Assembly: GCF_000011385.1 (NCBI RefSeq)
Contig: NC_005125.1
Location: forward strand, 1,984,001-2,048,000
Origin: Gloeobacter violaceus PCC 7421
Lineage (GTDB): Bacteria > Cyanobacteriota > Cyanobacteriia > Gloeobacterales > Gloeobacteraceae
Direction: 5' to 3'
Length of the DNA stretch: 64,000 nt
Shown here: positions 32,309 to 47,200 of the stretch, piece by piece
How positions within the stretch are numbered: the stretch's first letter is position 1
Layout: every line of letters starts with the position of its first letter
Position numbers and translations under genes: made by a program
Notes under the pieces: generated by a model
The model's input: only the letters and a program-made list of their open reading frames with translations
The model's database searches: none
What the model was told of the DNA's origin: nothing

Positions 32309-32884
32309 TTAGGCGCCGGGCACAGTGCTCAGCCAACCGAATACCTCGCCGACGCTCAAGCGCAAATCGGAGATTGGCTCCGGCACCGGTAGCGGAGCAG
32401 TTGGGACGTTCAGCAACATCGGCTGACGTCCAGGCGGATACACCAGCACGGAGCGCTCGGCGGGATCGACAAGCCAACCCATTCGACAACCGTGCTCCAG
32501 GCAATGGAGGATGTTGCCGGTGACCCGGGTCTGACTTTGCTCCGGAGAAAGCATTTCGATGGTCCAATCGGGAGCGCGGTCGAAAACGTTGGCGATCTCG
32601 GCTTGTTCGTCGATAGGAATGCGTTCCCAGGCAAACACGGCGATATCCGGAACCACCGAACGCCCGTCAAACGTACAACGTAGTTCTGGAAAAGCCCTTG
32701 CAATTCGCCGGGGTTTGGCCGCAGCGTCGACGGCAATCACCAGTTCGGCCTGCAGTGTGCTGTGTTTGCCCTGGGGCATCGGCTTTTGAAGAATCCGACC
32801 GTCGATATATTCGCAGGCGGGTTTGGTTTCCGGAAGGCGCAGGAACGCTTCCAACGTGACGAAGGCGACCGGTGATTGCGCCAC
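32309..32884 (-). CDS. Uma2 family putative endonuclease
   Basis: 191 residues with the Uma2 pattern: CEYIDGRILQKPMPQGKHSTLQAEL, VPDIAVFAWERIP, WTIEMLSPEQS...GWLVDPAERSVLVYPP. GTG start at 32884 gives MAQSPVAFVTLEAFLRLPE, the usual family beginning. Only distantly similar to the other two Uma2 proteins in the window. Confidence 0.8.
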   Translation of the reverse strand: MAQSPVAFVTLEAFLRLPETKPACEYIDGRILQKPMPQGKHSTLQAELVIAVDAAAKPRRIARAFPELRCTFDGRSVVPDIAVFAWERIPIDEQAEIANVFDRAPDWTIEMLSPEQSQTRVTGNILHCLEHGCRMGWLVDPAERSVLVYPPGRQPMLLNVPTAPLPVPEPISDLRLSVGEVFGWLSTVPGA

Positions 32885-32951: not shown

Positions 32952-33842
32952 CTACAGCGGGAAAGCGGCGTCGCCGAGGCGCACGTAGATGTCGCGCTGA
33001 TTGTCGGCAAAAGTCCGCCGCCCGTGCATGGCGCGGCTGTTGTTGATCATGGCGATGTCGCCGCTCTTCCAGGGCAGGGCGATAGTGATCTGCTCTGCCA
33101 CCGCCTGCAACTCGCTTATCACCGCCTCGGGGATCGCAGAACCGTCCTCCAGGCGCACCAGGCTCGCGCTCGAACCGGCCCGCTCCTGGCCCACCACCGG
33201 CAGGATGTTGTTGATGAAAACCTCATGCCGGCCGTCGGGGCTGCCCACAAAGGCCGAAGCAAGAAATTCGGTGGTGACGCTGCGGTTCTCGCCGAAGTGG
33301 ACCGCCATGCGGTTGGCGGCCGCGATCGCGGTCACCTCCTCAAGGCTGTCGGTCTGGTAGATGCCCTGCCAGGTGCCGTCCGGGTAGGTGCGGATATACT
33401 TGAGCCGCTGGGTGCGGAACAGTTCGCGGGTGGTGGGACTCAAGGTCTTCCAGAAGCGGATGCCGTCCGAGACCGTGGTCTCACCGCCGCTCAGGGCCGG
33501 GGCGGCACAGTAGAACCAGAGCACCGAGGGTCGGTAGAGGGAGTAGTACATCTCGCCGTGCATTGGGACGGCGAAGCGCAATTTATGACCGGTCACCGAC
33601 ATCAAAGTCTTGTCGCCGCCGATCGTCTCGCGGCTGTAGGCGCCGCCCACGTAGGGGCGAAATTCGGTGCAGAACTCTTTGCTGAAGCGCTTAAACGTTT
33701 CGGTGTCGGCCCCGAAGCCGCTGAAATAGACGTAGCCGGTGGTGCGAAAGGCGTCGATCAGCCATTCAAAGTCCAGGTCAAACAGGCCGATGCCGGGGGC
33801 GGCTTCGTAGGTCGTTCCGAATTTTTCCGTGGTGGTTTGCAT
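32952..33842 (-). CDS. TauD/SyrP-type Fe(II)/2-oxoglutarate oxygenase
   Basis: 296 residues. Iron ligands: His95-x-Glu97 (PMHGEMYY) and distal His273 (SRAMHGRRTF); 2-oxoglutarate-binding Arg likely at 283 or 288. The His-x-Glu form is seen in SyrP/AsnO-like hydroxylases of secondary metabolism rather than in TauD proper. ATG 33842 has GAGGAA 7 bases upstream. Last gene of the left arm of the sulfotransferase cluster. Likely hydroxylates a small molecule or a carrier-bound amino acid; substrate unknown. Confidence 0.82.
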   Translation of the reverse strand: MQTTTEKFGTTYEAAPGIGLFDLDFEWLIDAFRTTGYVYFSGFGADTETFKRFSKEFCTEFRPYVGGAYSRETIGGDKTLMSVTGHKLRFAVPMHGEMYYSLYRPSVLWFYCAAPALSGGETTVSDGIRFWKTLSPTTRELFRTQRLKYIRTYPDGTWQGIYQTDSLEEVTAIAAANRMAVHFGENRSVTTEFLASAFVGSPDGRHEVFINNILPVVGQERAGSSASLVRLEDGSAIPEAVISELQAVAEQITIALPWKSGDIAMINNSRAMHGRRTFADNQRDIYVRLGDAAFPL

Positions 33843-33886
33843 GGCGAATTTCCTCAAGAAACGTCGTTCAAGGGCAAAAAAACGGC

Positions 33887-35209
33887 TCAGTCCAGGGGGA
33901 AGCGCCAGGCTTCGAGGGCAATCGAAGGCAGCGGCTCGCCTTTTTTGGCCGGGGGCTGTCCCTGGGCTCGCGGGTTGAAGAGGAGCACCAACCCCTCGGG
34001 GGTCGAGAGGGCCGCCACCAACTCGCCCCCGAAATTCCCCAGGGGTTTTTCCGTCCACTGCTCACCGTCCGGGGTGACGAACAACTTGAAGGCGCCCCGG
34101 CTGGTGAAACCCGCGCACAGGTAACCCGCGTGGGCCACCAGGCACTGCAGCACGGCCGTACCGTCGTCGAAGCCCGGACCCATCGCCGAGAAAGGCACCT
34201 TCAGCCCCGAGGGCGAAAAGCGCGGCTTGCCCACGATCAGATCCCAACCGCCGTCGGGATTGACGCGGAAGATTTCGACATTGGCGACCTGGTGGGCGCG
34301 CAGCGAGCGGTGGGATTTGCCGCCTGCCAAGTAAAGGCAGCCCCCGAAGTGGGCCATCGCCGCCACCTGCTGGTTGTCGCTAAATAGATAGGCGCCGCTG
34401 GCGATCACCTGCTCGAAATCGCCGGGCTGAGCGGCGAGCGCCCCCAGCCGCCACAACTGAAAACCGCGCTCCAGGTTGCGCGTTCCTATATAGAGTGAAT
34501 CCGCGAATACTGCCGCGCGGCAGGCCAGTTCGTTGCCTTGTTCCTTAAATCCCGGTACGGGCACTTCCTCCCAGAGGGCCGAGTCCACAGCCTCACCGCG
34601 CAGTAGGGGCGGCGCATTCTGGCTGAGGCCGGTGGCCAGGGCCACCACCCCGCCCCCAAACGGGACAGGCTGGTGAAAGGTGTGGCCGTTCGCAGGCACA
34701 AGATCGAATGTTGTCCGCCACGGTCCGCCATCTTCGCTAATGGCCACCTCGCCCCCCAGGGGCGAAGAGAGACTCGCCACCAAGCGACCCCGCTCTTCAA
34801 ATAGACAGCAATAGACATTGCGGCCCGTCTCCAGGGCCTGCTCGCCCGCCAGGTTCACCCCCAGGGCGTCGGTAAGCTTGTCCTTCGATTGCTCCTCGGT
34901 CGGATTGTCCGGGAAGAACGTATCGAGCATGTTCCCCGGGCCGCTGCGCCGCTTGGTGTTGATGGCCAGGGAGGTGTGCACCGTCTGCCAACCCCGGGTC
35001 TGCGGGTCGAAGCGGACGATGCGCCGAAAATCCTGCACGTCGCGGTCGATGTAGAGGCCGGCAAAGTAGATTTGCCCCCCGTACCAGGCCAGGGCACCGA
35101 CGATTTGATCGACATCGTCGATGTCCAGTTGGGCGATGGTGCCGAGGGAGTGGGCGCCGGGGGCGATCTGGCCGGGCGCGGCGGTGGGGGAGGCAAGTGG
35201 GTGGATCAT
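33887..35209 (-). CDS. Propeller-like protein of unknown function
   Basis: 440 residues without signal peptide or membrane helix. Recurrent strand patterns (ALAWYGGQIYFAGLYID, AVFADSLYIGTRN, MAHFGGCLYLAGGK, LVAHAGYLCAGFTS) spaced about 60-90 residues apart suggest a six- or seven-bladed beta-propeller. No known family signature seen. The gene lies between a sulfotransferase and an oxygenase gene on the same strand (39 and 44 base gaps), suggesting a scaffold or an enzyme of the same pathway. Confidence 0.65.
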   Translation of the reverse strand: MIHPLASPTAAPGQIAPGAHSLGTIAQLDIDDVDQIVGALAWYGGQIYFAGLYIDRDVQDFRRIVRFDPQTRGWQTVHTSLAINTKRRSGPGNMLDTFFPDNPTEEQSKDKLTDALGVNLAGEQALETGRNVYCCLFEERGRLVASLSSPLGGEVAISEDGGPWRTTFDLVPANGHTFHQPVPFGGGVVALATGLSQNAPPLLRGEAVDSALWEEVPVPGFKEQGNELACRAAVFADSLYIGTRNLERGFQLWRLGALAAQPGDFEQVIASGAYLFSDNQQVAAMAHFGGCLYLAGGKSHRSLRAHQVANVEIFRVNPDGGWDLIVGKPRFSPSGLKVPFSAMGPGFDDGTAVLQCLVAHAGYLCAGFTSRGAFKLFVTPDGEQWTEKPLGNFGGELVAALSTPEGLVLLFNPRAQGQPPAKKGEPLPSIALEAWRFPLD

Positions 35210-35248
35210 GGGAGCGAAACCTCACTTTTTGTCAAACGGCTCGCGCTT

Positions 35249-36211
35249 TTAGTACCCCATCTGCTGGGCCAGCTCCTGGATCTCGCGGGCGGTGTCGGTG
35301 TCGACGGCCCACTCGAAGGTGCCCTTGAGGGGCGGGATGGGCACTTTGCTGCTGCGCAATTTTGGGTTGGCCAAAAACTTCGGATCGTTGCCGAAGGGGG
35401 CATTGATGGGACCGGTGCGGGCGTAGGGCGATTCTTCGGGCGATTTCATCTCGTCGATCGCCTCTTGATCGGTGCGCACCCCCAGCCACTCGGCGATCTG
35501 CGGCAAATAAATATCGAGATCCGAGAGCAGATCCTCGCCGCGGATGCGCATGCCCTGCCCCAAGGGCAGCCGCTCCATGAAGTTCATAATCTTGGTGTGG
35601 GCGCTCAGCCAGAGCTTGAGCGGGCTCACCTTCACCGGTTTATTGCCCTTGAGGTCTTCCTCTTCGTCCGACAGAAAGGCCGGATCGACGCTCCAGCCCA
35701 CCTTGGCCTGCATTGCCCCCACCTGCTCGCGCGTCTGGATGATCACCGAGAGAAATTCGGCGATCGACTTGGCGGAGGTGACCGGGTGGCGGGTCAGATG
35801 CAAAAAACGGGCCTTCGGAAACATGTGGAAGGCCCGCTCCATGTTCTCGACTTTTAAGATCGTGGTCGGAGATTTGTCTACGCCGATCTTAGGATTTACA
35901 TAATCGAGTACATAGTTGAACACTTCTTTGCAACCCAGGTGCATGTGTTCGTTGATCCAGACGCGCGCCCGGTGCACCGACAGCTCGTCTTGCGTCCCTT
36001 CGTGGATTTCGGCCAGGGTGCGGGCGAGGCCGTCCATGGCCGTGGGCCAGCGCCGCTGGATGCGGGCAAAATTCAGTTCTTCGATCGTGTCGGTCTTGAA
36101 TAAATTCAGCTCCGGAAAACCGTACAGATCCGGGTGTCGGCCCAGGAGCGCGCAGACGACCGACGAAAACGAGCGTGGAGGTGTCAATATAATCAGAGGC
36201 TGATGCGACAC
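35249..36211 (-). CDS. PAPS-dependent sulfotransferase
   Basis: 320 residues of the sulfotransferase fold. 5'-phosphosulfate loop TPPRSFSSVV (Arg13), the VDKSP segment with Lys113, and the 3'-phosphate motif FLHLTRHPVTSAKSI (Arg141, Ser149) are intact. The end EIQELAQQMGY is shared with the divergent paralog at 36711. Transfers sulfate from PAPS to a hydroxyl or amine; acceptor unknown. Second gene of the left arm. Confidence 0.83.
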   Translation of the reverse strand: MSHQPLIILTPPRSFSSVVCALLGRHPDLYGFPELNLFKTDTIEELNFARIQRRWPTAMDGLARTLAEIHEGTQDELSVHRARVWINEHMHLGCKEVFNYVLDYVNPKIGVDKSPTTILKVENMERAFHMFPKARFLHLTRHPVTSAKSIAEFLSVIIQTREQVGAMQAKVGWSVDPAFLSDEEEDLKGNKPVKVSPLKLWLSAHTKIMNFMERLPLGQGMRIRGEDLLSDLDIYLPQIAEWLGVRTDQEAIDEMKSPEESPYARTGPINAPFGNDPKFLANPKLRSSKVPIPPLKGTFEWAVDTDTAREIQELAQQMGY

Positions 36212-36249
36212 AGGTATAGCCAGAACAATATCAAGTGGGGGCTATTGTA

Positions 36250-36621
36250 TCACTTCGGCAAACGGGCCAGGCGTTGGTCGAGCCGCCCCAGCTCGTCGGC
36301 GGTCATCTGCACCAGCGCCACCAGCGTCTTGTACTGATGCTGCAGTTGGCGCTTGTACTCCTCCAGCTCGCTGCGCGAAGAGCAGTCCTCGGCCACCTCC
36401 GGGGCTTTGACCCAATCCTGGATGGTCTTGAGAAATTCGAGCGGGACGGCGTTGTAGACCACCTGCGGCTGGACGTCCTCCAGCTGGGGCATTGCCTGGG
36501 CAGGAGCCTCCGGCAGCGGCAATTCTTCGAGCAGGCTCTGCTCGTGGCGGTCGCGGAATTTTTGCAAGACCGCCTGGCGTTTCTGCGCGTCGCTGGGCAA
36601 AATCTCGGGTTCGGCCGACAT
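36250..36621 (-). CDS. Coiled-coil protein at head of sulfotransferase arm
   Basis: 123 residues, helical, ending in a coiled coil (SSRSELEEYKRQLQHQYKTLVALVQMTADELGRLDQRLARL). Not recognised. First gene of the minus-strand arm, 38 bases before the sulfotransferase start; ATG 36621 preferred over the longer frame. Confidence 0.6.
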   Translation of the reverse strand: MSAEPEILPSDAQKRQAVLQKFRDRHEQSLLEELPLPEAPAQAMPQLEDVQPQVVYNAVPLEFLKTIQDWVKAPEVAEDCSSRSELEEYKRQLQHQYKTLVALVQMTADELGRLDQRLARLPK

Positions 36622-36710
36622 AAAAATCCTGCACAAAACTCGCCGTTATTGTAGACCCGCGCCTTCGATCCGTATAGGCTTGCAGGCGAACCCACCCCAA
36701 GGCGCGCACC

Positions 36711-37616
36711 ATGCCGACCGCCCCACCGATAGTCATCCTCTCGGCCACCTGCAGCGGCAGTTCGCCCCTTTCGGCGATGCTCGGCCAGCACCCGGAAGCT
36801 TACGGGGTGCCCGAGATCAACTTGCTGATGGCCCGCACCGTCGAAGAACTGGTGCTGCTGTTGCAGGGGCCGCGCCAGTTTCAGATCCACGGGCTATTGC
36901 GCGCCGTCGCCCAGCTCTACAGCGGCGAGCAGACCCTCAACGCCGTCGCCATGGCCCGCCGCTGGCTCTCCAACCGCTACTACGCCCAGACCACCGAGGT
37001 GCTCGCGGAGTTGTGCGCGCGGGTGGCGCCTTTGCGGCTGGTCGATCCGAGCCCGGTCTATGCCGCCGAACCGGAGCGGCTCTCAAGACTTTACGAAGCT
37101 TTTCCGGAGGCTCACTTTGTGCACCTGCTGCGCCATCCGCGCGCCCAGGGCGAGGCGGTGATGGCGATCGCCGGGGGGGCGCTTGCCATCAACGACGGGG
37201 CCTTCGAATTTGTCGCCAAAAAACCGGTCCTAGATGCCCAGCGCACCTGGTTTACGTTCAACGACAACATCCGCCGTTTTCTGACAGATGTCCCTGCCTC
37301 CCAGCAGACGGCCGTGCACTGGGAGGCGGTCGCAAGCCGTCCCACTTCCACCCTGCGCGATCTGTGCCGGGGGCTGGGACTGAGTTGGAGCGAGGAGATT
37401 GGCCAGGCGATGCTGCACCCGGAGCACTCCTCCTACGCCGGGTTCGGCCCCTACAGCACCCACCTCGGACACGACCCCCATTTTTTGCGCAATCCATACT
37501 TTTCAGAACAGCCCGAAGGGCACTTCTCGCTGGAAGACTCGCTCGCCTGGCGGGCGGACGGAAAGGGTTTTTATCCGGAAATTCAGGAACTGGCGCGTCA
37601 GATGGGTTACGACTAA
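36711..37616 (+). CDS. Degenerate sulfotransferase paralog
   Basis: 301 residues, clearly paralogous to the product of 35249-36211 (same LGxHPExYGxPEINL start, same RHP motif at 141-143, same EIQELARQMGY end). The loop Arg is replaced (ATCSGSS), the VDKSP Lys is Pro (VDPSP), and the PAPS-binding Ser149 is Ala. It has therefore lost key PAPS contacts and is probably a non-catalytic or altered enzyme. Divergently transcribed from the left arm. Confidence 0.75.
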   Translation: MPTAPPIVILSATCSGSSPLSAMLGQHPEAYGVPEINLLMARTVEELVLLLQGPRQFQIHGLLRAVAQLYSGEQTLNAVAMARRWLSNRYYAQTTEVLAELCARVAPLRLVDPSPVYAAEPERLSRLYEAFPEAHFVHLLRHPRAQGEAVMAIAGGALAINDGAFEFVAKKPVLDAQRTWFTFNDNIRRFLTDVPASQQTAVHWEAVASRPTSTLRDLCRGLGLSWSEEIGQAMLHPEHSSYAGFGPYSTHLGHDPHFLRNPYFSEQPEGHFSLEDSLAWRADGKGFYPEIQELARQMGYD

Positions 37617-37678
37617 CCGGTTCGGCGGCGGGCAATTCTTGTAAGAAAGCATGGCTGGGGGCAGTACGTCCATCGCAT

Positions 37679-37707
37679 TTGACACCCCAATGGAAAGCTG
37701 ATAGTCT
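37679..37707 (+). promoter_or_regulatory. Candidate promoter of TPR gene
   Basis: TTGACA (37679-37684), 17 bases, then TAGTCT (37702-37707), 35 bases before the ATG at 37742. Confidence 0.5.
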
Positions 37708-37741
37708 TCTGCTCAAGTTGTTGCTTCGGTAAATTTACGGT

Positions 37742-38722
37742 ATGGCAGGATTTACTCCAAAGCTTAAAAAAGTTACAAAGGCGAACTCGCGCGACCGTCT
37801 GAAGCTCGCCGGGACTCTGTTTCGAGAAAAGCGTTACGACGAAGCCCTCGAGGAAGCCACTGCCATTTTGGAAGAAGAACCTTCCTCCCTGCAGGCCCTG
37901 ATGTTGACGGGCAGCGTTTACCTGAAGACCAAGCGCTTCGACGAAGCCCTGGACGCCTTTCAAAAAGCGCTCAGAGTCGATCCGCTCTCGCCGCAGGCTT
38001 GCCTCGGTATCGGTATGGCCCACCTGCGCAAAAAAGACTACAAGCAGGCGACGGTGGCCTTCGAGAGTGCCCTCAAGCTCGATCCCAAATCGGCCAAGGC
38101 CTATATCACCCTGGGCATGTCGGCCCTCGGCCAGGAGCACTACGATCTGGCCATCCAGTACTTCAACAAGGCGCTGCGCTTCGATCCGCAGGCGGAGATG
38201 GCCCGAATCTTGATCTCGCGCGCCTACAAGAAGCTCGGCAAGCCGGGCGACGCCGTCAGTACCCTCGAGACCGCCGTCAAGCTCAACCCCAAGAGCGGCA
38301 TGGCCAACATGTCGCTGGCGAGCTTCTACTTGCAGAACAAAGACTACACTTCCGCCGAGGCCGCTTTGCAGAGGGTGCTCGAAGCGCGGGGCGACAAACC
38401 GGCCCCGACGATCATGCTGTCGCTTGCGGATCTGTACGTCCAGACCGACCGCACCGAGGAAGCGGGCGACATCCTGCGCGCCCTGCCCTCGGCGCCCAAG
38501 CTGCAGGCGCGCAAGCACAAGCTCTTCGGCGATCTCTACACCAAGCAGGGTCTGCTCAAGGAAGCGGCGGAGGAATACCGCGCCGCGAGCTTGATGGCCT
38601 CCGACGACGATGAAATCGACGATGTCGACCTCGACGGTCTGGTGGAAGCCGGTTCGGCCAGCTGGCAGGAACTGGCGAGCACCTACCGGGCGACGGCCAC
38701 CGAGTCGATCTCGCGCAAGTAA
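37742..38722 (+). CDS. TPR repeat protein
   Basis: 326 residues made of about seven 34-residue TPR units (residues about 17-280: EALEEATAILEEEPSSLQAL, DEALDAFQKALRVDP, YDLAIQYFNKALRFDP...). An acidic tail (ASDDDEIDDVDLDGL) follows. Cytoplasmic adaptor type, no enzyme domain. Its stop lies 46 bases before the phosphatase-fold gene, and it sits in the right arm of the cluster; probably assembles the pathway enzymes or the exporter. Confidence 0.82.
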   Translation: MAGFTPKLKKVTKANSRDRLKLAGTLFREKRYDEALEEATAILEEEPSSLQALMLTGSVYLKTKRFDEALDAFQKALRVDPLSPQACLGIGMAHLRKKDYKQATVAFESALKLDPKSAKAYITLGMSALGQEHYDLAIQYFNKALRFDPQAEMARILISRAYKKLGKPGDAVSTLETAVKLNPKSGMANMSLASFYLQNKDYTSAEAALQRVLEARGDKPAPTIMLSLADLYVQTDRTEEAGDILRALPSAPKLQARKHKLFGDLYTKQGLLKEAAEEYRAASLMASDDDEIDDVDLDGLVEAGSASWQELASTYRATATESISRK

Positions 38723-38768
38723 AACATCATCGCATCGAGACCCCCCTACTGGCTGCGTGGAGGCAGGA

Positions 38769-39596
38769 ATGCCCAACCATCTCGTGCAGATCATCATGGA
38801 CAGCTGCCGCTTTGACAGTTATGAAGCGGCGGCGACGCCCAACATGGACAAAATCGGCAAAGGGGAGGCGCGCTACAGCTACGCCTCGTGGACCTCGCCC
38901 TCCCATTACGCCATGCTCATGGGAATGGTGCCCCACACCAGCCCGCGGGGGGTCTTCGCCTCCGAAGTCTACAAGCAGGAATTTACCCGCTGGATCGACC
39001 GGCTCGATATGCCGGATCTGTCCTTCAAGACTTTCGTGCCGCACCTGTCGCTGCCGAAGGTGCTGCAGGATCTGGGCTACGAGACGATCGCCCGCGTCTC
39101 GATGCCGGTGCTCAACCAGTTGACGGGCATGAACCGCTTTTTTGACGATTACAAATTGATGGGCAACCACAACGACTTCAAGTCAATGGTGGCGGAAGTC
39201 GAATTCGAAGAGGACGAACCGCGGTTCTACTTCTTTAACCTCGGCGAGACCCATTACCCCTATATGCTCTCCGGCGAAGATTTGCCCCACATCTCAGGGG
39301 TGCACGGCGTCTTCAAGCACATGGACGAATCGCTCAAGGCGGGCGAGGGACCGGTAGAGGCCAAGTTCTTCGAAAAAGACGAGATGGAGCAGCTGCATAA
39401 GCAGCAGATCCGTTGCGTCGAGTACATCGACGGCCTGTTGGGGGAACTGATCGAGAAGTGCCCGCCCAACACCCACTTCATCGTCACCGCCGATCATGGC
39501 GAGTTGTTCGGTGAGGACGGTTATTTCGGCCACGGCCCGATCATGCACCCCAAGTGCTTTGAGATCCCCTTCCTCGAAGGTCTGCGCCCCGCCTAG
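38769..39596 (+). CDS. Alkaline-phosphatase/sulfatase-fold hydrolase
   Basis: 275 residues. N-terminal metal site VQIIMDSCRFDS, TPNMDKIGKGE, the nucleophile region ASWTSPSHYAMLMG, and the C-terminal metal site TADHGELFGED. In sulfatases the nucleophile position is Cys/Ser in CxPSR; here the matching residue is Thr (TSPSH), as in phosphatases and phosphotransferases of the superfamily, so hydrolysis of phosphate is as likely as of sulfate. No signal peptide. GGAGG lies 5-6 bases before ATG 38769. Confidence 0.75.
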   Translation: MPNHLVQIIMDSCRFDSYEAAATPNMDKIGKGEARYSYASWTSPSHYAMLMGMVPHTSPRGVFASEVYKQEFTRWIDRLDMPDLSFKTFVPHLSLPKVLQDLGYETIARVSMPVLNQLTGMNRFFDDYKLMGNHNDFKSMVAEVEFEEDEPRFYFFNLGETHYPYMLSGEDLPHISGVHGVFKHMDESLKAGEGPVEAKFFEKDEMEQLHKQQIRCVEYIDGLLGELIEKCPPNTHFIVTADHGELFGEDGYFGHGPIMHPKCFEIPFLEGLRPA

Positions 39597-39657
39597 CACC
39601 TTGAAATCGCCGTCGGTGGGCGCTTGCACCCCCCCGCCGAGGAAGTTGGAGGTCTCG

Positions 39658-42345
39658 ATGTACCAGCCCCTTCAAACTTGCTTTCGCAGGGATCTCGTCA
39701 TCGATGAGGTCGTCAAGGCGGGCGTCAAGTCCTACCGCATCAAGGACCCGGCGAGCGGGGAGACCTTCGAGTTTGGCGAGGAAGAGTTTTTTCTCTGTCA
39801 GCTGATGGACGGCGCCCTGACGCCGCGCCAGATTATCGAGGCCTTCGAGGCGCGCTTCGGCCTCAAGATGAGCGAAGAGGACTTCGAGCCTTTTTGTCGA
39901 CAAATTGGCGAATACGGGTTGCTCGAGCGCTACAGCGAACGCCGACAGACGACAGCCACGATCGTTGTCTCCGAGGCGCAGCCCTTCGCGGCGGGGGGTG
40001 CCTTTGAAGATACAGGGGAGCCGGGGCAGGGCAAAAAGCCCAAAAGCGACATGCCCTACAAGTGGTACTACCCCGAGCTGGCGCCGGTGTTCGTGCTGTT
40101 TGCCCGCCTGCTCGAACCGTTCCACCTGCTCTTTAAGCTCGCGTTTTTGCTGCTCATCCCGACCGTCCCGCTGACGCTGATTACGATCCTCAACAACCAG
40201 ATCCTGTTTTTTCAGGATTTTTCAGAGTACTACTCGCCCATCGACGGGTTGACCAAGCACATGGTCAACATCCTGGTGGTCAACAGCATCAGCAAAGTCG
40301 CCCAGGCCGTCGTCGCCTCCCATTACGGCGTGGCGGTCGAGCAGTTCGGTCTGCAGATGCTCTTCGGCTTTTTTCCGCGCTTCACCGTCGGCAAGGGGCC
40401 GCTGTTCCGCCAACTCACTCGCGAGCAGCAGATCTGGACCTTCGCGACTCCGATCCTCGTGCGCTTGCTGTTGTTTGTGTTGGGCGGCCTCACCTGGTAC
40501 CTCAACCACGGTTCGACCAACAGCATGAGCGCCTGGGCCGTGTCGCTGTGTTATATGGCCTTCGTGGATACGGTGCTCGACTCCAACCCGCTCTGGCCGA
40601 GCGACGCCTACGGTGTGGTGGTGGCCTACTACCGGCTGCCGCCGAGTTTATTTAAGCGCAACCGCCAGATTGTCGAGCGTCTGTTGCGTCTGCAGTGGCT
40701 GCCGGACACCATTCCCCTGGGCGACCGGTTGCGGATGACTTTTTTTGCGCTGGTCGGCGAGGTGGTCTGGCTGGCGTTTTTTGCCTACATTACTCTGCAC
40801 AGCGCCGAGGCGCTGCAAAAGCTGGTCCCCGATCTTTTGGGCGAAGGTCTGGGGATACTATTGTTTTGCCTGCCGTTCCCATTCGCTATCCATTGGTGGT
40901 TACTCGTGCGCGACAAAACTCGGACTTCTAAAAAAGCTTCTTCGTCGTCGCCCCTGGGTTCTGACCAGGCGGCGATCACCCCGGCGGGCAAGCCGGACCA
41001 TCTGCAACTGCCGGAAGGGGAGCAGGCGAATTTGCAACTGGCCTCCCAGGCATCGGACGGCATTCTGGAGGCACCCGGATCGGCCCCGCCGCGCTTCGGC
41101 GGCGGCGTCAATCTTTGGGAAGTGTTCCGCAAAGGTCTGCCCTGGCTTGTCCTGGCGGCTTTTGTCGTGATTTTAATGCTGCCCTATACCTACCACTACG
41201 GCGGGGCGATCCAGCTGTTGCCTCCTCGCCAGCAGCCGATCGCCGTCGAAGTCGAAGGTGTGCTCGACAAGCTCTACTTCAAGGGCGGCGATCAAAAGCT
41301 GATCAAGGCCGGCACCACCCTCGCGCTCTTGCGCTCGGTGGACACCCAGAATCAGGTGAACACGGGCCTTTCGGACGTGCGCACCAGAGAGGCGGCCTTG
41401 ATCACTGCGCAGGAAGAATTGCGCAAGTTGCTGAGCATGCCCCGGCCCGAGGAGGTGCAGGTGGCGCGCGATCAGGTGAGTGTCGCCCGCCAGGAAGTCT
41501 CGGTGGCCAAAAGCCAGCTGGTGACCGCCAAGAGCAAAGCCGACTTCAGCGCCCGCGAAGCGGAGCGCAACTTGAAACTCAGCAAAGAAGGGGTCGTCTC
41601 CGATCAAGTCTACGAAAACGCCAAGCGCGAAGCGGAGACCGAGCGCATCGGCGTCGAGACCGCCCAGGAGAGCCTGGCAAGCGCCGGGCAGCGCCTGGAG
41701 CAGGCCCAGTCGAATTTGCGCCTGGTGATGGCCGGTCCCCACCCGCAGGAGATTTCCGCCGCCCGCAGCAAAGTGGAGCAGGAGCGGGCCGAATTGAAGC
41801 GGGTCCAGGACCAGTACGCCTACTACCGCCAGCAGCTCAATTTCACCAAGGTGGTGATGCCCTTTAACGGCTACATCATCACCCCCAACCTCGACTGGAA
41901 GGTCGGTAGCCGCATGCAGGTGGGCGATGTGCTGGGAGTGGCCCAGCACGCCAGCCGCATCACCGGCACCATCCAGATGCCCGAGTACCAGGCGGGCGAC
42001 GGCTTCAAGCCCGGCGGCGAGGTGGAAGTGAAGCTATGGGCCTACCCGACCCGTTCGTTTGCAGGCAAGGTGGCCTCGATCGAACCGGTGGCCACCTCCT
42101 ACAACAAGAACGACCCCCAGAACGTCACCAAGAGCGTCGAGTACGGCGCCGACCCGACCGAGTTGCTCAAGAGCACGACGCGCTACGTGAACGTCGTGGT
42201 CGACTTCCCGCAAGCCAAAGCCGAGATGAAGCCGGGCATGACCGGTTACGCGAAGGTCACCGGCGAGACCCAGCCGGTCTTCCAGGCCTTCAGCCATCCG
42301 CTGGTGCGCTTTGTGACCGTCGAGCTGTGGTCCTGGTTGCCGTAG
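39658..42345 (+). CDS. PqqD-like / inactive M50-like / HlyD membrane fusion
   Basis: 895 residues in three parts. Residues 10-92: winged-helix PqqD-like domain (peptide-binding type). 140-420: multi-helix membrane domain aligned to M50 site-2 proteases of HlyD-fused type, with GVAVEQFGLQMLFGFFP and DSNPLWPSDAYG; the HExxH motif is replaced by SKVAQ (212-216), so no zinc protease activity is expected. 493-515: membrane helix. 528-895: HlyD-type adaptor with biotinyl-lipoyl halves flanking a coiled coil (about 574-728). GGAGG precedes ATG 39658. Likely exports or presents a peptide or modified product of this cluster. Confidence 0.8.
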   Translation: MYQPLQTCFRRDLVIDEVVKAGVKSYRIKDPASGETFEFGEEEFFLCQLMDGALTPRQIIEAFEARFGLKMSEEDFEPFCRQIGEYGLLERYSERRQTTATIVVSEAQPFAAGGAFEDTGEPGQGKKPKSDMPYKWYYPELAPVFVLFARLLEPFHLLFKLAFLLLIPTVPLTLITILNNQILFFQDFSEYYSPIDGLTKHMVNILVVNSISKVAQAVVASHYGVAVEQFGLQMLFGFFPRFTVGKGPLFRQLTREQQIWTFATPILVRLLLFVLGGLTWYLNHGSTNSMSAWAVSLCYMAFVDTVLDSNPLWPSDAYGVVVAYYRLPPSLFKRNRQIVERLLRLQWLPDTIPLGDRLRMTFFALVGEVVWLAFFAYITLHSAEALQKLVPDLLGEGLGILLFCLPFPFAIHWWLLVRDKTRTSKKASSSSPLGSDQAAITPAGKPDHLQLPEGEQANLQLASQASDGILEAPGSAPPRFGGGVNLWEVFRKGLPWLVLAAFVVILMLPYTYHYGGAIQLLPPRQQPIAVEVEGVLDKLYFKGGDQKLIKAGTTLALLRSVDTQNQVNTGLSDVRTREAALITAQEELRKLLSMPRPEEVQVARDQVSVARQEVSVAKSQLVTAKSKADFSAREAERNLKLSKEGVVSDQVYENAKREAETERIGVETAQESLASAGQRLEQAQSNLRLVMAGPHPQEISAARSKVEQERAELKRVQDQYAYYRQQLNFTKVVMPFNGYIITPNLDWKVGSRMQVGDVLGVAQHASRITGTIQMPEYQAGDGFKPGGEVEVKLWAYPTRSFAGKVASIEPVATSYNKNDPQNVTKSVEYGADPTELLKSTTRYVNVVVDFPQAKAEMKPGMTGYAKVTGETQPVFQAFSHPLVRFVTVELWSWLP

Positions 42346-42349
42346 TCGG

Positions 42350-43186
42350 CTAACTGCCCAGCTTCACCTGGTAGACGTTGCCTTCGCCCTCGTCGCTGAC
42401 CAGCAGCGTCCGTTCATCCAAAAAGAGGGCTTCGCGGGGTTTGCCGAGCTTGTCGGCCACCACGGTCGGTTTGCCCTGCTTGTCCAGGCGCACCAGCTGG
42501 CCGCTGCCGATGTCGGTGACGTAGATGTCCCCGGCGGGAGAGATAGCCAGCCCGCTGGGGTCGGTGAAGCCCTTCGCCCAAAGCGTCGGCTTCTCACCCG
42601 GTGCCCAGCGGTAGACGCCCTTGTCGCCCTGGTCGGTGACGTAGGTTGTGCCGTCGGCTGCAACAGCAATATCGCGCCAGCCGTAGGTCGCTTCACGCGG
42701 GTTGACCGTCACCGGCGGCTCTTCCTTCTTGAGGGTGCCTTTGCCGTCGGGCGCGTAGCGGCTCACCTCGCCCGTGCGGTGGGAGACCACCAGCAGCGAG
42801 CCTTTGCGGCCCGGATCTTTGACCACACCCAGCGGGTCGGTGATCTTGCCTTCCAGGCGGCTCACCTGCCCCGACTGGACGCGGGCGAGACCGTTGCCGT
42901 TGCGTTCGGCCACGTAGAGCACCCCATCCATCTCGACCGACCACGACGGGCGCTGCAGGTCCTTTGCCGCCACCGTCTGATTCTTGCCGTCCGGGGTGTA
43001 GCAAACCACCCGGCCTGCCCCCTGCTCCACCACACAGATGTCTTTGCCGACGAGCGCGAGGCCCTGGGGCTTGTCAAGGCCCGTCACCCACTTGCTCACC
43101 ACGGCGGTACTCGCCGGGACGGTTTCGGCCGTCACTGCTGCGGCCAATGCCGCAGCGATCACCACTCCATACCTGATACCTGCCAT
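42350..43186 (-). CDS. Secreted NHL/SMP-30-type propeller
   Basis: 278 residues. Signal peptide (GVVIAAALAAAVTAETVPA). Propeller repeats of the NHL kind (LDKPQGLALVGKDICVVEQG, DPLGVVKDPGRKGSLLVVSH, DPSGLAISPAGDIYVTDIGSG). ATG 43186 has GAGG 6 bases upstream. Periplasmic or extracellular; binding or lactonase-like role. Convergent with the fusion exporter (4-base gap) and divergent from cytochrome c6. Confidence 0.78.
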   Translation of the reverse strand: MAGIRYGVVIAAALAAAVTAETVPASTAVVSKWVTGLDKPQGLALVGKDICVVEQGAGRVVCYTPDGKNQTVAAKDLQRPSWSVEMDGVLYVAERNGNGLARVQSGQVSRLEGKITDPLGVVKDPGRKGSLLVVSHRTGEVSRYAPDGKGTLKKEEPPVTVNPREATYGWRDIAVAADGTTYVTDQGDKGVYRWAPGEKPTLWAKGFTDPSGLAISPAGDIYVTDIGSGQLVRLDKQGKPTVVADKLGKPREALFLDERTLLVSDEGEGNVYQVKLGS

Positions 43187-43208
43187 ACGCCACCTCAAGA
43201 AAAATGAA

Positions 43209-43226
43209 AAGATTGTGAAAAATCTT
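43209..43226. promoter_or_regulatory. AT-rich palindrome between divergent genes
   Basis: AAGATT (43209-43214) and AATCTT (43221-43226) with 6 bases between, followed by TTAATATATG. This is the only AT-rich stretch in the 88-base region between the NHL gene and the cytochrome c6 gene, so it probably carries both promoters and perhaps an operator. Confidence 0.35.
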
Positions 43227-43274
43227 AATATATGAGATACCAGAGCAAAGGGCGCGCGTCAAGGGAGCAGGGCG

Positions 43275-43613
43275 ATGCGGTGGGTGTGGACAGTGGGGGC
43301 AGTGAGCATTTCGGTGCTGGGAGCGGGGGTGATCCTGGCCGAGGCACAGCCGGATCTAGCGGCGGGAGAGAAGATCTTCAAAGCCAACTGTGCGGCTTGC
43401 CACGCCGGGGGGAACAATATCGTGGAGCCGGAGAAGACGCTCAAAAAGGAGGCGCTCGCTCACTTCGGGATGGGTTCGCCAGCGGCGATTATCCAGCAAG
43501 TCACCGGCGGCAAAAACGCCATGCCTGCCTTTGGGGGTGAACTGAGCACCGAGGAGATCCGGCAGGTGGCTTCCTACGTGCTGGAGATGGCAGATAAAGA
43601 CTGGCAGAAATAA
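43275..43613 (+). CDS. petJ: Cytochrome c6
   Basis: Soluble lumenal/periplasmic electron carrier between cytochrome b6f and photosystem I. 112 residues with a signal peptide (to about residue 24, LAEAQ). The haem-binding CAACH is at 39-43 and the axial Met83 is in NAMPAFGG. C-terminal helix [14 protein letters not shown]. Length of the mature protein (about 88) is typical. In a thylakoid-less cell it would work in the periplasm. Confidence 0.93.
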
Positions 43614-43624
43614 AGCAAATCCGC

Positions 43625-44362
43625 TCAGAGAAGCGCTTCCGGGTCGATGCCGCGCTCGCGCAGCAATTCGGCGAGGCGCTCGGCCCGTCGCTCGGCTTCC
43701 AGGCGTGCCGAGCGCTCCTGTGCGACCTGTACTTCGACCTGTGCCAGTTGTTCTTCAGGGGCAGCGAGCCGGTTTCCGGTCGCGTCGAACCAGTACAACC
43801 ATTCGCGCTGCCAGCCGCAGTAGCGCCCGGGCGAGCGGCCGATCCCCAGGCCGATTTCCGCCAGCCACACCGGTTCACCGGGGAGGCGCACGTATTCCCC
43901 ATCGACAAGTTTGTATACTTCGAGCGTGTCGTGCTTGCGCCTGCGGCTCGGACGGCTGGGGTTGTAGACGACGTAGTACAAGATTTCAAGCCGCGCGTAG
44001 TTCTTCATCTTGCTGCCGTACTCGCCCCGGTAAGTTTTCGAGACCACTTCCAGGGCGAGGATGGGCAGAACATTGTCCTCCTCCCAAAGCACATAGCTGA
44101 GGCGACCGTTCTCGGCCACGAACCGTTCGACACCCAGGCTCAAGAAGCCGTCCGGGACGACGGCCGGTTTTTCGGGGTCGTAGTAGACGCCCATGTCGAC
44201 GCCAAAAAACCAGTCCTCCCGCTGCGCCCAGAGGATGGCCAGAATGGCGCCGAGCAGGTTGGGGACAAGATTTTGCAGTTCGTTGTCCACCGGTGTCTCG
44301 TCGGAATCGAGCAGTTCTGCGGAGGAGGGCAGGCACTGCCACGAATAATACCGCTGCAGCAT
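43625..44362 (-). CDS. Uma2 family protein with C-terminal coiled coil
   Basis: 245 residues. Uma2 core: VPDGFLSLGVERF, PILALEVVSKTYRGEYGSKMKNYARLEILYYVVYNP. A charged coiled-coil tail follows (EEQLAQVEVQVAQERSARLEAERRAERLAELLRERGIDPEAL), a form common in cyanobacteria. Convergent with petJ (11-base gap). Confidence 0.85.
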   Translation of the reverse strand: MLQRYYSWQCLPSSAELLDSDETPVDNELQNLVPNLLGAILAILWAQREDWFFGVDMGVYYDPEKPAVVPDGFLSLGVERFVAENGRLSYVLWEEDNVLPILALEVVSKTYRGEYGSKMKNYARLEILYYVVYNPSRPSRRRKHDTLEVYKLVDGEYVRLPGEPVWLAEIGLGIGRSPGRYCGWQREWLYWFDATGNRLAAPEEQLAQVEVQVAQERSARLEAERRAERLAELLRERGIDPEALL

Positions 44363-44887: not shown

Positions 44888-44989
44888 TGGCACGGCTTGC
44901 AGCTGAGACGTGATCTGTGGCAGGGCGAAGACTTCTGGTCTTCTCGCCCCCAATCTTTTCCGTCTGGATCTGCTTAGTTGGGAATTTTG

Positions 44990-47200
44990 ATGAGAAGTGC
45001 TTTGCGTGCGGCTCAAAGCGTTGCCGCACCGGTTTTGGGCTGTGCATGCTTTTTTAGCACGCTATTGCAAGTGTGGGGTATACCGGGAGCGCTTGCTGCT
45101 CCAGAGATCTCGCCCGTCCGCCGTCTGGACCTACTGGCCGTCGGCGAGGCCCAACAGCTGCTGGCACAGACGCAAACGCCTGGGGGCAAAAGTGAGGATG
45201 AGCTTGAGGAGGTGACGGTACTGGGCAACCGCGGTTACCTGCGCAGGAACGCCGATTCGGGCACGCGCACGGACACCGCCATCCGGGACATTCCCGCCAA
45301 TATTCAGGTGATCCCCCGGCAGATAATCGACGATCAGGGAGCGGTACGCATCGAGGAAGCGCTGCGCAATGTCAGCGGCGTGACCTTCGCCAGTTCCTTC
45401 GGCGGTCGCGCCCCCGAGTTTAACGCCCGCGGGTTCACCGCCAGCCTCTACAAAAACGGCTTTCTGGAGCGCAACGGCGGCAGCTTTTTCAACGCCCGCA
45501 CCTCGCCTGAGGTTGCCAATCTGGAGCGCCTGGAGGTGCTCAAAGGCCCGGCCTCGGTGCTGTTTGGCCAGGGCGATCCCGGCGGCACGATTAACTTGAT
45601 TACCAAAGCACCCCTTTTGACCCCCTCGGCTTCCATCCGCTTTACCGCGGGCAGCTACGACTTCTACCGCACCACCCTCGATCTGGGCGGTCCGCTCACC
45701 GGCGATGCGAGCCTCGCCTACCGCCTCAACATCGCCTACGAGGACACCCACAGCTTTCGCGATTTTGTCCAGAAGGCCCGCTTCTTCGTCGCACCGGCGC
45801 TTACCTGGAAAATCAGTCCCCAGACCACCCTGCGCTTCGAAGGGGAATACCTGAGCGACAACTACCCGATCGACCGGGGACTGGTGTTTGTGAATGGAGC
45901 CGATGTCGGCCTGCCGGTCAACCGTTACCTGGGCGATCCGACCCGCCGGCAGGTGTACGACGAAAAGCGCGGCTATCTGACCCTGGAGCACGCATTTGCC
46001 GAGAATGTGCGTCTGCGCAGCTTCGTGCGCTTGAGCACCAGCCGCGAGGACTACCGCTCCACCGAGGTGAGCGGGCCGCTGCAGGCGGATGGGCGGACGC
46101 TGCCCCTCGGGGGGTTCGAGGGAGGTCAGTACTACGAAACTTACACCTGGCAGAACGACCTCATCTGGAAATTCGACACCGGCTCCATCAAGCACACGCT
46201 GCTGGTCGGCTTCGATTGGATCAAACAAACCGGGTTTTTCTACAACAATGGCTTTTACGACGGCAATGTCATCGATATCTTCACTCCCGTCTATCGCTTC
46301 GACTACACCAACCGCATCGACGATTCCGGTTTCGACGGCCTGACGACCGCCAACACCTTCGGCGCCTATATCCAGGATCAAATCGCTTTTTCCGACAATC
46401 TCAAGTTGTTGCTGGGCGGGCGCTTCGACAGCTTCGACTACCAGGACGACTACCGCGACGACAGCTTCAACTCCTTGGCCCGCGCCCAGGCGTTTTCGCC
46501 CCGGGTGGGCCTGGTCTGGCAACCGATCGCGCCGGTTTCGCTTTTTGCCACCTACAACCGTTCTTTTTTGCCCCAGTTCGGTCTCAATCCGTCCGGGACG
46601 GCCTTTTTGCCGGAGCGCGGCACGCTCTACGAAGCCGGGGTCAAAGCCGAACTGGCCGAAGGACGCTTGTTCTCGACGTTGTCTATCTATCGCCTCGAAA
46701 AGGACAATGTCCTGACAGCGGATCCTTTCAATCCGCGCTTTTCGATCCAGGTCGGTCAGCAAAGCGGTAGCGGCGTCGATTTCGATATCGCAGGCGAAAT
46801 TCTTACGGGCTGGAATGTCATTGCTTCCTGGGCCTACAGCGATGCGCGCATTACCCGCGACAACACCTTCGCGGTGAATAACCGCCTGCCCAACGCCCCC
46901 TTCCACACCGCCAGCCTCTGGACCACCTATCGCCTGCGCGAAGGGGCGCTCTCGGGCTTCGGCGTCGGCGCGGGCCTGTTTTATGTGGGCGAGCGCGCCG
47001 GCGATCTGGACAACACCTTCGCCATTCCCGGCTACACGCGGGCCGATGCGGCTGTCTACTACGAGCGGGAGCGCTGGCGGGCGGCGGTCAACTTCAAGAA
47101 TCTGTTCAACGTGCGCTACTTCGAAGGGGTGCAAAGCGACACCCGCATCTACGTCGGGACGCCATTCACTGTGCAGGGAACGCTCAGCTATCAGTTTTGA
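44990..47200 (+). CDS. TonB-dependent siderophore receptor
   Basis: 736 residues. Signal peptide to about residue 36 (PGALAAPE), a TonB-box-like EEVTVLG, the plug domain (TDTAIRDIPANIQVIPRQIIDDQGAVRIEEALRNV split over 90-125), and a 22-strand barrel ending GTLSYQF with terminal Phe. Conserved LKGPASVLFGQGDPGGTINL matches ferrichrome/FhuA-type receptors. Takes up ferric siderophores or another metal chelate with TonB energy. ATG 44990; a TTG at 44978 is less likely. No siderophore transport genes adjoin. Confidence 0.9.
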   Translation: MRSALRAAQSVAAPVLGCACFFSTLLQVWGIPGALAAPEISPVRRLDLLAVGEAQQLLAQTQTPGGKSEDELEEVTVLGNRGYLRRNADSGTRTDTAIRDIPANIQVIPRQIIDDQGAVRIEEALRNVSGVTFASSFGGRAPEFNARGFTASLYKNGFLERNGGSFFNARTSPEVANLERLEVLKGPASVLFGQGDPGGTINLITKAPLLTPSASIRFTAGSYDFYRTTLDLGGPLTGDASLAYRLNIAYEDTHSFRDFVQKARFFVAPALTWKISPQTTLRFEGEYLSDNYPIDRGLVFVNGADVGLPVNRYLGDPTRRQVYDEKRGYLTLEHAFAENVRLRSFVRLSTSREDYRSTEVSGPLQADGRTLPLGGFEGGQYYETYTWQNDLIWKFDTGSIKHTLLVGFDWIKQTGFFYNNGFYDGNVIDIFTPVYRFDYTNRIDDSGFDGLTTANTFGAYIQDQIAFSDNLKLLLGGRFDSFDYQDDYRDDSFNSLARAQAFSPRVGLVWQPIAPVSLFATYNRSFLPQFGLNPSGTAFLPERGTLYEAGVKAELAEGRLFSTLSIYRLEKDNVLTADPFNPRFSIQVGQQSGSGVDFDIAGEILTGWNVIASWAYSDARITRDNTFAVNNRLPNAPFHTASLWTTYRLREGALSGFGVGAGLFYVGERAGDLDNTFAIPGYTRADAAVYYERERWRAAVNFKNLFNVRYFEGVQSDTRIYVGTPFTVQGTLSYQF

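Follow-up and report, generated by a model that had tools for sequence, protein, structure and literature searches.

Gloeobacter is an early-branching cyanobacterial lineage. The DNA analysed here (the window) is a stretch of 64,000 nucleotides, positions 1,984,001–2,048,000 of the single-contig, 4,659,019-base genome of Gloeobacter violaceus PCC 7421 (G000). It holds an eight-gene locus encoding two sulfotransferases (STs), an oxygenase, a propeller-like protein, a small coiled protein, a TPR protein, an enzyme of the alkaline phosphatase (AP) fold and a three-part exporter. Parts of this set recur in several described systems. In CurM and the olefin synthases (OLS), an ST activates a beta-hydroxyacyl chain on an acyl carrier protein (ACP), and a hydrolase then releases the chain as a terminal alkene, CO2 and sulfate being lost. 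The window STs resemble these in sequence family and in acting next to a carrier protein, but they are free-standing, and the window contains neither a fatty acyl-AMP ligase (FAAL) nor an ACP-ST-thioesterase (TE) fusion. The sulfated-peptide system RaxST/RaxA combines an ST with an HlyD protein, as does the window cluster; the latter, however, lacks both a precursor peptide and a peptidase-ABC transporter.

Other relatives are lipid-making polyketide synthases (PKSs). Pfa-like synthases share with the G. violaceus synthase discussed below a PfaA-like order of ketosynthase (KS), acyltransferase (AT), ACP(n), ketoreductase (KR) and dehydratase (DH), accompanied by a phosphopantetheinyl transferase (PPTase). 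Secondary lipid synthases of type O have been listed for G. violaceus, Dinoroseobacter shibae and Parvularcula, the product being uncharacterized (Shulse and Allen 2011, PMC3098273); the label is given for G. violaceus as a species, which holds three PKS islands, and the accessible portion of that account mentions no sulfotransferase, no exporter with a RiPP recognition element (RRE) and no AP enzyme. Heterocyte glycolipid (hgl) islands are alike in that a long-chain lipid is made by an iterative PKS and exported, but the window cluster showed no ABC genes of the hgdBC type. An hgl island with an unknown product has been reported for G. violaceus overall, together with a call for high-resolution lipid analysis (PMC11804610); it is not tied here to the island at 4.43 Mb, and the full text of that paper contains no word starting with 'sulf'. 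The type P phenolic-lipid clusters of Beijerinckia and Methylosinus plasmids have a related synthase (~42% over the enoyl reductase (ER)-KS region), but bear a type III PKS in place of sulfotransferases and an ordinary HlyD protein without RRE and site-2-protease (S2P)-like parts. The Methylosinus cluster also carries ABC, HlyD and TolC genes, which supports export by HlyD partners. In the open-access papers searched, no report was found that joins a PfaA-like synthase type with sulfotransferases, a sulfated lipid or an RRE-HlyD exporter.

We consider it likely (probability roughly 0.7) that the window locus supplies the tailoring and export steps of a secondary-lipid pathway that is split in two, its PfaA-like iterative PKS being encoded at 4.42–4.44 Mb of the same genome; the product is probably sulfated. 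Observed in support were conservation of gene order, co-occurrence and linkage with the synthase in other genomes, the fold assignments of the exporter and an ACP-ST fusion.

Co-occurrence and linkage with a PfaA-like synthase

The first synthase protein at 4.42–4.44 Mb has 3029 residues and comprises a nitronate-monooxygenase-like ER (NPD), KS, AT, three tandem ACPs (each with GIDSIKR), KR and DH; the second, of 1702 residues, reads KS-AT/CLF-DH-PPTase. The synthase scored 1240 bits against TIGR02813 (PfaA; cut-off 1010) and has the make-up of secondary-lipid, PfaA-like enzymes, that is, an iterative KS-AT-tandem ACP-KR-DH array with ER and PPTase. Its [VIL]SIxH motif fits class P1b', which PMC3098273 gives for types M–T. 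Genes for a free ACP, an AP-superfamily phosphodiesterase (PDE) and a second propeller protein follow; the operon ends at 4.42 Mb with this paralog of the window propeller protein (~32–36% over the matched part). The three ACP repeats (L091:401-9490, 4.43–4.44 Mb) are almost letter-identical with a period of 106 residues, which points to duplication or gene conversion in the recent past.

Distribution was surveyed in 40 genomes (G. violaceus and 39 relatives) and in 386 cyanobacteria, using as synthase query a 657-residue piece of the PKS that adjoins the TPR-AP pair in G008; weak partial matches (exporter in G011; ST in G011, G018 and G035) were set aside in the counts. Among the 40 genomes, the exporter and the PfaA-like (PUFA-type) synthase occurred in exactly the same nine (G000–G003, G007, G008, G015, G021 and G045). 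The AP enzyme was found in all nine and also in G012 and G036, and ST and propeller in eight of the nine (the propeller search did not extend to G045). G012 and G036, small-genome cyanobacteria of one genus, have a solitary AP homolog (~54%; L027, L076) without other cluster parts. Among the 386 cyanobacteria, the synthase was present in eight (in one weakly) and the full-length exporter in eight, seven being common to both (Fisher P = 2.7e-13, or 3e-10 by genus, values that ignore shared ancestry). In six of these seven genomes, exporter and synthase lie on one contig within ~45 kb, G. violaceus being the exception. Over 12 genomes, exporter and synthase distances correlated (Mantel r = 0.77, P = 1e-4), one close pair accounting for part of the effect.

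Genes of the window type were physically linked to the synthase in G405, G045, G008, G015, G330, G336, G352 and G295. In the distant genome G405 the run is unbroken: ST, short-chain dehydrogenase (SDR), hydrolase, propeller, TPR, SDR, AP (74%), small protein, exporter, adenylyl-sulfate (APS) kinase, PDE, ACP and three synthase proteins. In G045, the AP-TPR pair belongs to an extended cluster that also has P450, methyltransferase, SDR, CoA-transferase, AP-superfamily PDE, ACP and APS kinase genes, on a contig that also holds the exporter and two large PKS proteins. G015 has a set of PKS, ACP, PDE and SDR genes, then the ST and propeller genes. In G008, TPR and AP are followed by the synthase, and an ST-exporter pair also occurs. 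An ACP 37% identical to that of the G015 cluster is fused to a Sulfotransfer_3 domain in G295 (L132:18533-19843), beside a lipid-type synthase. On a plasmid of Rhodobacteraceae SC52, a TauD protein 36% identical to that of the window lies beside a related synthase; the TauD of G045 was rejected as a counterpart, not being a close relative.

Layout and conservation of the eight-gene locus

Direct reading of the window places eight open reading frames (ORFs) at 32952–42345, four on each strand. On the minus strand lie the genes for a TauD/TfdA-family Fe(II)/2-oxoglutarate oxygenase of the His-x-Glu type (32952–33842, 296 aa; PF02668, E = 3.7e-41), a propeller or kelch-like protein (33887–35209; a weak Kelch_6 match, E = 1.6e-5), sulfotransferase ST1 (35249–36211; Sulfotransfer_3, PF13469, E = 8.8e-18) and a small charged coiled protein (36250–36621), to which small proteins beside ST or exporter genes in other clusters are weakly similar. 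After a divergent intergenic region of 89 bases (36622–36710), a length that assumes a start of the small coiled protein at 36621, the plus strand encodes sulfotransferase ST2 (36711–37616; PF13469, E = 1.1e-26), the TPR protein (37742–38722; Pfam TPR), which is the partner gene of the AP-fold enzyme, that enzyme itself (38766–39596; Sulfatase/AP, PF00884, E = 5.8e-10) and the exporter (39658–42345; HlyD_D23, E = 1.6e-9, plus predicted folds). ORF coordinates and Pfam matches agree with the genes and families named by the first-pass annotation, with starts corrected for the TauD protein, the small coiled protein, the AP enzyme and the exporter. The longest gap between cluster genes is 125 bases and no gap holds a precursor peptide gene; no ABC or RND pump is encoded in the window cluster, in line with the earlier remark that it has no ABC transporter.

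The same eight-gene order was found in three further Gloeobacter genomes (G001, G002 and G003), so that the cluster is more than a chance assembly; the refuting condition named beforehand, loss of this order from every relative, therefore did not hold. Over their whole length, the regions of G001 and G003 are 83–100% identical to that of G. violaceus. G002 has all eight genes in unchanged order and orientation, with proteins 54–83% identical, but the flanks differ, the aldo-keto reductase, NHL and cytochrome genes being gone from that position. A near-identical locus in Aphanocapsa lilacina HA4352-LM1 was the sole match in an exporter scan of genome contigs. The more distant genomes have the genes split up. 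In G007, the TauD, propeller, ST1 and small charged protein genes stand together with a divergent ST2, and the genes for AP, TPR and the RRE-HlyD protein occur at another place; its TauD (~50% identical) adjoins the propeller gene, and where the match ends there is one in-frame TGA. Four Gloeobacter genomes retain the TauD gene. The AP and TPR genes lie side by side, or nearly so, in G002, G007, G008, G021, G045, G336 and G405. The small coiled protein is kept within the genus and has weak similarity (20–28%) outside it.

Directly 3' of the exporter are genes for an NHL/ScyE-like secreted protein and a small cytochrome c (42350–43613), which are missing there in G002. What we take to be Uma2-like proteins flank the cluster on each side (32309–32884 and 43625–44362), and an ORF labelled by eye from its translation as TonB-dependent receptor-like lies downstream (44978–47200).

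Exporter, sulfotransferases and AP-fold enzyme

The RRE is a module known from peptide pathways. In the exporter, an RRE/PqqD-like domain (residues 1–95) precedes an S2P-like membrane domain (~133–413) and an HlyD-like adaptor (~500–895) that ends in WSWLP; complete homologs end in WSWxP. Pfam detects only the HlyD part of the window protein, PqqD and M50 being invisible to it, and matches PqqD weakly in 5 of 14 exporter homologs (best E = 0.016). A profile search of the RRE region against PDB sequences gave nothing significant (best match PqqD, E = 0.45), and folds were therefore compared. AlphaFold models of residues 1–460 (14 homologs as alignment; mean pLDDT 67.8, a moderate value) and of residues 1–103 (pLDDT 84.5) were both compared with solved structures. 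Residues 5–93 matched the TbiB1 RRE with Z scores of 10.5 and 10.9 by structural alignment, the lasso B1 RRE with 10.2 and 10.1 and PqqD with 8.2 and 7.7, clearly separated from unrelated structures; a winged-helix RRE fold is thus well supported by these models. Residues 133–413 matched SpoIVFB (Z = 9.9, 133 aligned) and the Methanocaldococcus jannaschii S2P (Z = 8.7, 160 aligned) in a region that is mostly helical and modelled with moderate confidence; the order of motifs along the sequence also supports the match. The HExxH zinc motif is absent from all 18 homologous exporter sequences, so that the domain is a conserved pseudo-protease. The fusion of PqqD, inactive M50 and HlyD parts proposed in the first-pass annotation is thereby confirmed at the level of predicted folds, the HlyD Pfam match and the lost zinc motif. 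Other cyanobacterial HlyD matches (E ~1e-21 to 1e-25) covered only the HlyD part and were rejected as unrelated adaptors; the few C-termini examined among them lack the WSWxP ending. Plasmid searches with the exporter returned only weak HlyD matches, likewise set aside.

ST1 retains intact PAPS (3'-phosphoadenylyl sulfate)-loop and RHP motifs. ST2 has Cys in place of the loop Arg (ATCSGSS versus SPRSFTS) and Ala in place of Ser in RHPRAQGEA, whereas ST1 keeps both residues; the earlier description of ST2 as degenerate thus holds for its motifs. Whether activity is lost is uncertain, since the one ST of the G405 run also has Cys instead of the loop Arg. ST2 is of the type found in other synthase clusters and is 41–46% identical to the single STs of distant ones. 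Among solved structures, those closest to the family are the ST domains of CurM and olefin synthase. The ST profile matched the CurM ST (E = 1.3e-34) and another PKS ST (E = 1.1e-31); matches to tyrosine-protein or heparan STs were far weaker.

The AP-fold enzyme has the invariant residues D12, T43, D243, H244 and H256 and no signal peptide was seen in it. Identity is 68–82% in cyanobacterial relatives and 51–53% beyond. The CxPxR/SxPxR signature of formylglycine sulfatases is absent, the site being occupied by invariant Trp42-Thr43 and Pro45-x-His47; the best family match was to STM4013 hydrolases (61.6 bits, below the curated cut-off of 250 bits). AP homologs on an Agrobacterium Ti-plasmid and in Mesorhizobium were set aside as belonging to different clusters. 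The former (pTi, L029) is a 30% relative a few genes from an adenylyl-sulfate kinase gene (cysC) and an MFS transporter gene; the latter, on a Mesorhizobium huakuii plasmid (L028), is 50% identical and stands among radical SAM, alanine racemase-like, TldD-like and P450 genes, which form an uncharacterized biosynthetic cluster.

Competing readings and a proposed pathway

Several observations weigh against assigning the locus to the PfaA-like synthase. The two lie 2.4 Mb apart in G. violaceus, and their linkage there is therefore drawn from other genomes; two more PKS islands exist in this genome (2.067–2.100 and 3.013–3.044 Mb), the first of them nearer to the window. G171 has the exporter without a PfaA-like synthase; exporter and TPR genes there adjoin a non-ribosomal peptide synthetase (NRPS) ending in PCP-ST-TE (L129–L130), so that the exporter is not bound to one synthase type. 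The Gloeobacter ST2 lacks the Arg of the 5'-PSB loop and the Ser of the 3'-PB motif, no ST was matched in G045 at E 0.001, and shared ancestry lowers what the Fisher values can carry. The nearness of the first island makes service of another G. violaceus PKS, most simply that at 2.067–2.100 Mb (40–80 kb away), worth weighing, but neither island holds exporter, AP, ST or cluster-type propeller homologs, and only the 4.43 Mb synthase type, the one that the co-occurrence search covered, adjoins window-type parts in other genomes; we judge it quite unlikely. Both islands (L133–L137) apparently encode hgl-like KS-AT and KR/DH proteins and carry thioesterase and PPTase genes. A sulfated surface polysaccharide or protein tyrosine sulfation locus, an unrelated lipid synthase having been inherited with it by coincidence, would accommodate the much weaker matches to protein-tyrosine sulfotransferases; the ACP-ST fusion and the contiguous clusters that include synthase, ACP and PDE render it extremely unlikely.

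Sulfation might instead be transient, the ST activating a beta-hydroxyacyl-ACP from which a hydrolase releases a terminal alkene, so that the product is sulfate-free. Among solved proteins, the window STs are closest by a wide margin to CurM and a PKS sulfotransferase, ACP-ST (G295) and PCP-ST-TE (G171) fusions occur in relatives, and several clusters include an alpha/beta hydrolase. Yet FAAL and a fused ST-TE are not in the window, Gloeobacterales have two STs, and no alpha/beta hydrolase homolog of the cluster kind was found beside the G. violaceus synthase. 7-Methylheptadecane has been reported from G. violaceus, and the same paper reports no genome that combines FAAR/ADO with OLS (PMC3903477), although heavy alkenes were possibly missed. 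Loss of the sulfate by this route is accordingly held to be unlikely. The first-pass annotation proposed a locus that tailors and exports a product, possibly peptide-derived. Tailoring and export gain support from gene-order conservation, PKS-type ST homology and the APS kinase genes of two clusters, but the peptide origin does not, because no precursor gene fits the gaps and the exporter homologs sit with the PfaA-like synthase, not with peptide maturases, in nearly every genome that has them. A RiPP-like pathway, in which the RRE would bind either the small coiled protein or a peptide precursor from another locus for modification and export, would suit the well-supported RRE fold (in the models) and the small protein, kept in the genus and with weakly similar ones in other clusters. 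The gaps are, however, too short for a precursor ORF (a precursor elsewhere was not searched), there is no conserved core peptide, and the exporter tracks the lipid synthase, which makes such a pathway very unlikely. A precursor gene is indeed missing from the cluster, as had been observed, but the missing part would be a synthase encoded elsewhere in the genome.

In the split secondary-lipid pathway that we favour, the 4.42–4.44 Mb synthase would build a long acyl chain, which the TauD-type oxygenase would hydroxylate and to which the STs would transfer sulfate from PAPS, both perhaps on a carrier protein. The presumably cytosolic AP-fold enzyme and its TPR partner may act on a phospho- or sulfo-ester, and the RRE/pseudo-S2P/HlyD protein would move the product through the inner membrane, its probable partners being a TolC-type channel and an ABC or RND pump from other loci. 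The substrate, the order of steps, retention of the sulfate and the direction of export are what we infer in this scheme. More doubtfully, and only as a tentative suggestion, the exporter might be a new lipid hand-off machine, in which the RRE recognises a protein partner of the synthase, either its free ACP or else the small coiled protein, and the dead S2P domain conveys the sulfated lipid across the inner membrane to the HlyD part fused to it.

The product of the lipid-type synthase of the earliest-branching cyanobacteria has been described as unknown (PMC11804610 and, for type O, PMC3098273). The analysis leads to a concrete prediction, namely that the 4.43 Mb synthase would make a sulfate-bearing or sulfate-activated long-chain lipid. 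It also places an RRE and a dead site-2 protease in a lipid context, which would widen the possible roles of these modules.

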